This document shows, piece after piece, positions 4,588 through 39,421 of a DNA stretch of 64,000 nucleotides. A program made the position numbers and the translations under genes. The notes under the pieces are model-generated. The model worked only from the letters and a program-made list of their open reading frames with translations. It ran no database searches and had not been told where the DNA came from. Location of the stretch: NCBI RefSeq assembly GCF_003675385.1, contig NZ_RCWZ01000004.1:682001-746000 (forward strand), in the 5' to 3' direction. The DNA comes from Mucilaginibacter kameinonensis (GTDB lineage Bacteria; Bacteroidota; Bacteroidia; Sphingobacteriales; Sphingobacteriaceae). Numbering within the stretch: position 1 is the first letter of the stretch; the number at the start of each line of letters is the position of its first letter.

Positions 4588-4709
4588 TGTCATTTCGAAA
4601 CGAGGAACGAGTGAGAAATCTTATACGCCATGCTTATCCGATCAACAAGGCGTACAAGATTTCTCCTTCGCCCCAAAGCGCTTTCCTCCCCTGCTCTCTC
4701 GAAATGACA
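4588..4709. repeat. Palindromic repeat family B, copy 1
   Basis: The ends TGTCATTTCGA and TCGAAATGACA are inverted, and the inner arms GAGAAATCTTATACGC and GTACAAGATTTCTC also pair. The same arrangement recurs at 27921-28080. It sits in the gap between convergent genes. It has no coding capacity, so it is a MITE- or REP-like element. Confidence 0.85.
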
Positions 4710-22659: not shown

Positions 22660-22693
22660 AAACGTCATTGCTTCGTACCTCGCAATGACGTTT
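22660..22693. repeat. Palindromic repeat family A, short solo form
   Basis: AAACGTCATTGC and GCAATGACGTTT are inverted arms around TTCGTACCTC. The central half of the family A unit is missing, as if only one end of the element is present. Confidence 0.8.
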
Positions 22694-37025: not shown

Positions 37026-38183
37026 ATGCCTGTATATCATAGTTTAGGATCAATTCCGCCTAAGCGGCATACGCAATTTCGTAAGCCCGACGGTAGTTTA
37101 TATGCCGAAGAACTGGTGTCAACCGAGGGCTTTTCGAGCCTTTATTCATTAGTATACCATGCTTACCCGCCCACCATTGTAAAAACCCTGGGCGAGCCCT
37201 ACAGCGTGGAGCCTAAAATAGCGCGCGAAAAGCACCTGAAGCATACCAGCCTGATAGGTTTTAATGTACAGCCCGAAGATGATTACCTGCAAAGCCGCAA
37301 GCCGGTACTGGTAAACAGCGATCTGCATATTTCGCTGGCAGCACCGCGCCAAAGCATGACCGACTATTTTTACAAAAACAGCCAGGCCGATGAGGTAGTA
37401 TTTATTCATGAGGGTACCGGCACCTTAAAAACCGGTTTTGGCAATATCAAGTTTCAGTATGGCGATTACCTGGTGATTCCGCGCGGTACTATTTACCAAA
37501 TGGAGTTTGACGGTACAGCAAACAGGCTTTTCATTGTAGAAAGTTTCAGCCCTATTCGTCCGCCAAAACGTTACCGAAACCAGTACGGGCAGTTGATGGA
37601 ACATTCACCTTATTGTGAACGTGATATCAAGCGACCTGCCGATCTGAAAACTTATGATGAGCATGGCGATTTTAAAATTCTGATTAAAAAGCAAGGCCTC
37701 ATTTATCCTTATATCTATGGCACCCATCCGTTTGATTTTGTAGGCTGGGATGGCTTTCATTATCCATGGGCCTTATCCATTCATGATTTTGAGCCGATAA
37801 CCGGGAGGTTGCACCAACCACCGCCGGTACATCAAACCTTTGAGGGTAACAACTTTGTGATTTGTTCTTTTGTGCCCCGCAAGTTTGACTATCACCCGCT
37901 ATCTATCCCTGCACCGTACAACCACAGCAATGTGGATAGCGACGAGGTGTTGTATTATGTTGATGGCGATTTCATGAGCCGCAAAAGCGTGGTAAAAGGA
38001 CAGATCACCTTGCACCCGGGCGGTATCCCGCACGGGCCGCATCCTGGCTCTGTCGAAAAATCGATAGGTAAGGAATCAACAGACGAACTGGCTGTAATGA
38101 TAGATCCGTTCAGGCCACTAATGTTAACCGAGGATGCTATCAGGATAGAGGATGAAAATTATTATAAAAGCTGGCAATATTAA
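37026..38183 (+). CDS. hmgA: Homogentisate 1,2-dioxygenase (HmgA)
   Basis: A 385-residue iron-dependent ring-cleaving dioxygenase, somewhat shorter than the 430-440 residues of proteobacterial and human enzymes, as in other Bacteroidota. The cupin-like core has FVPRKFDYHPLSIPAPYNHS with the first iron His, acidic residues SDEVLYYVDGD, and HPGGIPHGPHPG with the remaining His. It converts homogentisate to maleylacetoacetate. hppD follows 113 bp downstream on the same strand with a family A palindrome in the gap. Confidence 0.95.
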   Translation: MPVYHSLGSIPPKRHTQFRKPDGSLYAEELVSTEGFSSLYSLVYHAYPPTIVKTLGEPYSVEPKIAREKHLKHTSLIGFNVQPEDDYLQSRKPVLVNSDLHISLAAPRQSMTDYFYKNSQADEVVFIHEGTGTLKTGFGNIKFQYGDYLVIPRGTIYQMEFDGTANRLFIVESFSPIRPPKRYRNQYGQLMEHSPYCERDIKRPADLKTYDEHGDFKILIKKQGLIYPYIYGTHPFDFVGWDGFHYPWALSIHDFEPITGRLHQPPPVHQTFEGNNFVICSFVPRKFDYHPLSIPAPYNHSNVDSDEVLYYVDGDFMSRKSVVKGQITLHPGGIPHGPHPGSVEKSIGKESTDELAVMIDPFRPLMLTEDAIRIEDENYYKSWQY

Positions 38184-38191
38184 CCGCTATA

Positions 38192-38279
38192 TCATTACGA
38201 GCGAAGCGTGGCAACCGCACGGAAGCATATTCGCCCTGTATAGCATGCGATTGCTTCGTCGTTCCTCCTCGTAATGACA
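38192..38279. repeat. Palindromic repeat family A copy with matched base changes, hmgA-hppD gap
   Basis: The left arm reads TCATTACGAG and the right CTCGTAATGA, whereas other copies have TCATTGCGAG / CTCGCAATGA. Both arms carry the complementary change, so pairing is kept. Inner arms GCATGCGATTGCTTCGTCG and the partner GAAGCGTGGCAACCGCA are partly decayed. Confidence 0.88.
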
Positions 38280-38296
38280 TATTTAATTTAATTAAA

Positions 38297-39421
38297 ATGA
38301 CTACTCAAACTTTAGATAAACAACAAACTACAACCGATTTCCTGCCCCTTAACGGCACGGATTACGTTGAATTTTATGTGGGTAACGCCAAGCAGGCAGC
38401 CCATTATTATAAAAGCGCTTTCGGCTTTCAAAACCTGGCTTATGCAGGACCTGAAACCGGCGTACGCGACCGCGCATCATACGTTTTACAACAAGGCAAA
38501 ATCAGGATTGTGCTTACTACTCCCCTGCACTCCAACCATCCAATTGCCGAGCATATCAAAAAACATGGCGACGGCGTAAAGGTACTGGCCCTTTGGGTTG
38601 ATGACGCCTATGATGCCTTTGAGCAAACCATCAAACGTGGCGCTGAAGCCTATCAGCAACCGCAAACTTTAACTGACGAGCATGGCGAGGTACGTACCAG
38701 CGGTATCAAACTTTATGGCGAAACCGTGCACATGTTTGTAGAACGTAAAAACTACAATGGCTTGTTTTTGCCCGGCTATCAGAAACTGGAAAATGCCTTT
38801 AACCCAACCGATACAGGTTTACTATATGTTGACCATTGCGTAGGCAACGTAGGCTGGCATAAAATGAATGAGTGGGTTAATTTTTATGAAGAAGTTTTAG
38901 GCTTCAGGAATATCCTCACCTTTGATGATAAAATGATCTCAACCGAGTATTCAGCTTTAATGAGTAAGGTGATGAGCAACGGGAATGGCTATGTAAAATT
39001 CCCGATCAATGAGCCGGCCGAAGGCAAAAAGAAATCGCAGATTGAAGAATACCTGGAGTTTTACGAAGACGAAGGCGTACAACACCTCGCTCTTGCTACC
39101 CATGATATTGTAGCTACGGTTACCGAACTGCAAAGCCGTGGCGTTGAATTTTTAAAGGTACCATCTACCTATTATGATGATCTGATTGATCGTGTAGGCC
39201 ACATCGACGAAGACCTTGAACCTTTAAAGCACTTAGGTATTTTGGTTGACCGTGATGACGAAGGCTACCTGCTGCAGATCTTCACCAAGCCGGTTGAAGA
39301 CAGGCCGACACTCTTCTTCGAGATCATTCAGCGCAAGGGTGCCAAATCATTCGGTGCGGGTAATTTTAAAGCTTTGTTTGAAGCTATTGAACGCGAACAG
39401 GAAGCAAGGGGGAACCTTTGA
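38297..39421 (+). CDS. hppD: 4-hydroxyphenylpyruvate dioxygenase (HppD)
   Basis: A 374-residue enzyme of two vicinal-oxygen-chelate domains that converts 4-hydroxyphenylpyruvate to homogentisate. Iron ligands are His in YVDHCVGNVG, His in GVQHLALAT and Glu in TLFFEIIQRKG. The N-terminal domain (about 15-155) carries DYVEFYVGNAKQAAHYY. It lies directly downstream of hmgA and supplies its substrate. Length is normal for the family. Confidence 0.96.
   Translation: MTTQTLDKQQTTTDFLPLNGTDYVEFYVGNAKQAAHYYKSAFGFQNLAYAGPETGVRDRASYVLQQGKIRIVLTTPLHSNHPIAEHIKKHGDGVKVLALWVDDAYDAFEQTIKRGAEAYQQPQTLTDEHGEVRTSGIKLYGETVHMFVERKNYNGLFLPGYQKLENAFNPTDTGLLYVDHCVGNVGWHKMNEWVNFYEEVLGFRNILTFDDKMISTEYSALMSKVMSNGNGYVKFPINEPAEGKKKSQIEEYLEFYEDEGVQHLALATHDIVATVTELQSRGVEFLKVPSTYYDDLIDRVGHIDEDLEPLKHLGILVDRDDEGYLLQIFTKPVEDRPTLFFEIIQRKGAKSFGAGNFKALFEAIEREQEARGNL

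Follow-up and report, generated by a model that had tools for sequence, protein, structure and literature searches.

We found that a palindromic element lying between an hmgA-like gene and hppD carries a matched base change in its two arms, with A38197 pairing T38272 where other copies of the family have a G-C pair. We put the chance at about one half that the element belongs to a REP-dimer-like family whose arms match mainly because of template switching during replication and exchange between copies. We observed matched changes that arose in place, a stem position with strong covariation and, at fixed sites between colinear flanks, elements whose content is not the same in the two species. 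The matched change had been pointed out in a preliminary description of the window (the whole stretch of 64,000 nucleotides that was analysed), and we could confirm it. The same description held that independent decay breaks pairing, which is correct, and broken pairing is what most changed copies show. The observation is sound but thin as evidence, and for a working RNA in particular it is weak evidence.

A family of head-to-head palindromes at the 3' ends of genes

The outer arms of the window copy read TCATTACGAG (38192-38201) and CTCGTAATGA (38268-38277), and the full layout is given in Table 1. Just outside the arms, at flank position -1, the copy bears a further change that is unmatched (A38191 against C38278), so that one tag is broken, the left one reading TATC. 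The protein of the upstream gene scored 52.8 bits against an hmgA cut-off of 510.75 and is distantly related to homogentisate dioxygenase. No Rfam family matched within the window at the gathering score.

Table 1. Coordinates of the element between the hmgA-like gene and hppD (window positions) and of the RAYT genes of the host genome
Feature	Position	Strand	Remarks
Whole palindromic element	38190..38279	.	head-to-head pair of REP-like units plus flanking tag bases
Left arm, type X	38192..38216	+	TCATTACGAG CGAAGCGTGGCAACC
Right arm, type Y	38249..38277	-	TCATTACGAG GAGGAACGACGAAGCAATC when read on the minus strand
Changed left-arm base	38197..38197	+	G -> A, partner 38272
Changed right-arm base	38272..38272	+	C -> T, partner 38197
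Unmatched tag change	38191..38191	+	A (G in 96/97 left tags), opposite C38278
Interior (spacer)	38217..38248	.	nearly identical in G000, G013 and G031
Upstream gene, homogentisate dioxygenase-like (hmgA-like)	37026..38183	+	
Downstream gene hppD, 4-hydroxyphenylpyruvate dioxygenase	38297..39421	+	
Four RAYT genes (L123-L126)	C8:753309, C8:795178, C7:999483, C11:124367		host genome (G000)

In the host genome (G000, 7.33 Mb), 114 copies with two consensus outer arms were found at the tested spacing and none in the reversed pattern; seven copies in the window pass the two-arm filter. The motif TCATTRCGAG has 244 forward and 242 reverse matches in the whole genome, to be compared with the 228 arms of the 114 consensus pairs. 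For closer analysis we used 97 host copies that passed a stricter filter: 73 on the 1.58 Mb contig C1 (from 98 raw candidates, which included false hits in coding regions and members of family B), seven in the window and 17 from 29 further loci (L010-L038). As these loci were picked for similarity to the window copy, the set of 97 is not a random sample, and its members were chosen as inverted pairs.

Among the 97 copies, 44 combine an X with a Y arm and 33 are Z-Z (34 by another filter). CG tags go with symmetric Z arms and TG tags with X and Y arms that are mostly unlike. The outer ends carry the tags CGTC or TGTC, with T/T at position -2 in 61 copies, C/C in 34 and T/C in two, and G/G at position -1 in 95; no tag of GTAG type was found at these ends. 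When five arms were folded singly, the consensus X arm formed a stem of 5+3 bp with an internal bulge and the Z arm folded otherwise. According to ORF-based gene calls, 70 of the 73 C1 copies lie in tandem (37) or convergent (33) gaps, two in divergent gaps and one within an ORF, against a background of 486 tandem, 159 convergent and 169 divergent gaps.

Across 149 genomes of the same genus, copy number ranges from 0 to 142 and climbs with genome size (rank correlation 0.45). One exact 25-base arm recurs in at least 118 stretches of the genome collection and in 18 stretches of viral contigs; the taxa among the matches listed are mostly Bacteroidota, with some Comamonadaceae, Gammaproteobacteria and Sulfurimonas. 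Two cyanobacterial plasmids (NC_019728.1 and AP018309.1) match the right half of the element only, over 34-39 nt at 95-97% identity. A literature search with the arm sequence gave titles that look unrelated among the matches listed. Two related structures were also seen in the window. At 22665-22690, CGTCATTGCTTCGTACCTCGCAATGACG resembles a copy of the repeat that has lost the part between two TTGC words and so collapsed. The other structure, at 4590-4707, is a larger palindrome related to the repeat; its ends are TCATTTCGA and TCGAAATGA, it also lies at several C1 sites, and it has T-A at the base equivalent to the window change.

The double change at the window site arose in place

The orthologous element in G013, a close species, has the identical double change and the identical tag change. 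In G031 the site reads TCATAGCGAG with CTCGCAATGA, that is, a consensus right arm, a left arm with a different, unmatched change and nearly the same interior, and the orthologs in G017 and G074 have consensus outer arms. It follows from these states that the double change arose in place on the branch leading to G000 and G013, before these two split, and it was retained in both species. As the interior is nearly the same before and after the change, a new insertion at this site can be set aside.

A second matched copy and a covarying stem position

Another copy, at C1:992127, is matched at two pairs at once: one arm reads GAGACACGAAGTAATC and the other is exactly complementary to it. At these pairs its G013 ortholog shows G-C and C-G, besides several unmatched changes of its own, and C1:992127 keeps its interior relative to this ortholog. 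The 16-nt arm haplotype occurs nowhere else in the 1.58 Mb contig, nor in 0.8 Mb of G013. This copy makes a stronger case for arm correction than the window copy does.

Also in favour of arm correction, position N13 of the symmetric Z arms covaries strongly. Its pairs in 19 aligned copies are AU (7), UA (6), CG (3), UG (1) and others (2). Matched pairs at N13 number 17 against 7.1 by shuffling in 34 copies of G000, and 11 against 3.9 in 21 copies of G013 (P 0.0000 in 5000 shuffles for each). The covariation score of 0.068 was reached by none of 500 shuffles (mean 0.045) and by no slide (maximum 0.021). Pairs with double changes, found only at columns 15/70 and 1/84, amounted to two and were not above the shuffles (mean 3.0). 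Without N13, the host retained two matched pairs, which came from a single copy, where shuffling gave 0.23 (P 0.04). One-arm changes at N13 have also occurred in place: at the sites 82092, 91251 and 630345 the pair matches in only one of the two species. The matching at N13 could be explained by inheritance of matched subfamilies.

Orthologous copies show single-arm changes and probable exchange between copies

We paired 32 sites between G000 and G013, of which 21 could be aligned at a threshold of at least 0.85 and 11 could not. The 21 alignable pairs, found without selection, contain single-arm changes and one unmatched double change, and no matched double. This lack is the main result against the reading of arm correction, and both in-place matched cases, the window copy and C1:992127, were picked for looking matched. 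Within the 21 pairs, divergence amounts to 2.48% in arms, 3.86% in interiors and 5.77% in 60-base flanks, figures that overstate conservation because the pairs were selected for similarity. Nor is arm homogenisation general, since X-Y elements are unlike inside their arms in 44 of the 97 copies.

Fourteen of the 32 site pairs were viewed by eye, namely the 11 non-alignable ones and three others. Among the 11, both flanks are colinear in three (403722, 438751 and 628193), one side or nearly so in four, and the remaining four have the look of separate insertions. Colinearity at C1:438751 and 628193 reaches the element ends while the interior differs between the species, and the G000 versions resemble copies elsewhere at 0.95-0.98. 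Two further G000 copies, 82092 and 218454, have a common right-arm CATGCC that is absent in both G013 orthologs (CGTGCC in that of 218454). These sequence comparisons suggest exchange between copies for the two interiors and for the common right arm. At C1:403722, with its colinear flanks, the G013 interior fits better when reversed (0.91 against 0.82), but another G000 copy fits the G013 element equally well (0.92); inversion and replacement are indistinguishable here, and we rejected the site as proof of spacer inversion in place. A tandem duplication of the right arm is present in the ortholog of C1:765528 in G013.

A proposed model of template switching between arms

We favour the following model. 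The element, resembling a head-to-head dimer of CGTC/TGTC-tagged REPs located mostly 3' of genes, would have two arms able to pair once the DNA is single-stranded. During replication the polymerase could then leave one arm and continue on the other as its template (quasipalindrome template switching), whereby a mutation in one arm would be copied into the other in a single event. From the matched copies we infer this template-switch step itself, which would be the source of A-T at 38197/38272 and of the double match at C1:992127, and gene conversion between dispersed copies would spread variants of arms and interiors. The folds of the matched copies speak for the model. Pairing between the arms is maintained at their changed sites, whereas the single-arm hairpin is gone (-1.8 and -0.6 kcal/mol). 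The arms folded singly were the two of the window copy and one of 992127, and none forms the consensus X-arm stem. The matched changes therefore preserve the dimer hairpin and not the hairpin of the unit.

Two explanations stood in the preliminary description: the hairpin is under selection, or one arm is corrected from the other by a hairpin-dependent mechanism such as RAYT copying. Of these we favour correction, in the form of replication template switching and not of copying by RAYTs; selection on RNA is without support. Applied to the window copy, our preferred reading is arm correction in place through template switching; coincidence is a serious competitor, and RNA selection and RAYT copying are less likely.

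Chance, selection or transposition

To judge the matched change against chance, we counted departures from consensus in the ten outer bases. In the host, 22 of 97 copies are altered there and only the window copy is matched, which makes one matched pair among 32 departing cells. From allele frequencies 0.175 matched pairs would be expected (P 0.16), and from shuffling 0.126 (P 0.12); the host count is within chance. Over the 149 genomes, the window pair is G-C in 2831 copies, has A in one arm in 65 and is changed in both arms in three. Two of these three represent a single orthologous site shared by G000 and G013, and the third is in G079, which leaves two origins against 0.41 expected (P 0.064 by origins, 0.0099 by copies with n=3). 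Copies with one changed arm are therefore about 22 times as common as copies with two, and a small genus-wide excess of pairs is possible. According to the preliminary description, its claim would fall if a genome-wide alignment held no excess of paired over unpaired substitutions. By this measure unpaired changes prevail, with 65 copies against 3 paired, although pairs may be more numerous than independence predicts.

These counts leave room for coincidence, in which separate transitions, G -> A and C -> T, struck the same pair of the window copy with neither correction nor selection needed. The host probabilities, the two genus-wide origins, the abundance of one-arm changes and the unmatched tag change in the window copy itself are all compatible with it, but coincidence does not account for the two matched pairs at C1:992127, for the covariation at N13 or for the second both-arm case in G079, where the arms of the element are otherwise complementary, and on balance we hold it to be rather unlikely. 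Still less probable is selection on the long hairpin, acting either as RNA (3' end, stability or attenuation) or as a protein-bound DNA hairpin, with compensation following the first change. The location of the C1 copies at 3' ends, the lower divergence of orthologous arms than of flanks and the much stronger folding of the window antisense and four other copies than of shuffled sequences (z -5.2 to -13.5) would fit such selection, yet unpaired changes are retained in 21 of 22 changed host copies, as they are genus-wide, and copies in tandem gene gaps show no bias among their sense mismatches (34 G-U against 25 A-C, P 0.30). The window copy, moreover, folds worst of all in sense (-30.5 kcal/mol, z -2.66; antisense -39.8 kcal/mol, z -5.18).

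We consider it very unlikely that the matched arms were inherited as subfamilies from matched master elements or were made by a tyrosine transposase moving the hairpin. Following the suggestion to search for a TnpA_REP gene, we found four RAYT genes in the host genome (Table 1), whose proteins score above the NCBIfam cut-off for REP-associated tyrosine transposases. The presence of T, A and C subfamilies at N13 and the differing element content at 438751 and 628193 between colinear flanks would also agree with such an origin. Against it, no family-A pair lies within 350 bp on either side of the four genes, which are flanked by other palindromes; on these grounds we rejected the RAYTs as likely movers of family A. 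Each gene has its own distinct palindromes, three sets of which recur on C1, with a single match for that of L126. Of the 149 genomes, 16 have no Y1_Tnp match at E<=0.001 and nevertheless carry 0-21 copies, and copy number follows Y1_Tnp counts with a rank correlation of 0.17, lower than that with genome size. The nearly unchanged interior at the window site argues against a new insertion there, and the single-arm hairpins, presumably the feature that RAYTs recognise, are lost in the matched copies. Template switching is thus preferred over RAYT copying because the matched changes arose in place, because two pairs changed at once in one copy and because the single-arm hairpin was lost.

Implications for covariation analysis

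Compensatory base changes are commonly regarded as the strongest sign of a functioning RNA stem. The matched changes described here belong to a dispersed DNA palindrome that often has unpaired changes and for which selection on RNA is without support. Our tentative proposal, which we think a little less probable than its opposite, is that the arms are continually rewritten by template switching and inter-copy exchange, and that strong covariation would thereby build up without selection on a folded RNA. If this were true, covariation statistics would mistake thousands of intergenic elements for functional RNAs. The rate of arm correction in bacteria could be measured from a natural experiment, namely sets of orthologous copies from closely related species, of which the 32 site pairs studied here are an example.

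Comparison with known systems

The kind of event that we propose is already known. Template switching has been described as a source of compensatory changes (PMC8794818), and in another account it comes with arm homogenisation and spacer inversion (PMC8604942). As in these cases of mutation in inverted repeats, one event would rewrite an arm at several bases in a compensatory manner, but the cases described there were shown in RNA genes and in yeast. A full-text search of one literature collection found no paper joining REPINs or repetitive extragenic palindromes with template switching. REPINs (Bertels and Rainey 2011, PMC3116915) resemble our element in being an inverted REP pair with a spacer that forms a hairpin, and compensatory changes are described as common in their hairpins. 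Unlike here, where the RAYT genes have other palindromes, REPINs are tied to RAYT genes in that account. The RAYT genes of the host fit a Bacteroidetes subclass described as flanked by atypical structures (PMC6006769).

Closest to our family are the CGTC/TGTC-tagged REP dimers, described in five phyla including Bacteroidetes and, as far as that description goes, with no dedicated transposase known (Di Nocera et al. 2013, PMC3733652). A unit is defined there by its own stem of 8-9 bp with a loop of 4-5 nt, and the Z arms here differ in that their single-arm stem is weak. Those REPs occur mainly as head-to-head (HH) dimers, the form for which the 97 copies here were chosen. Like them, our elements carry the CGTC or TGTC tag and have a stem that begins with AT, and they likewise form both homodimers (here Z-Z) and heterodimers (here X-Y) in 3' and convergent locations.
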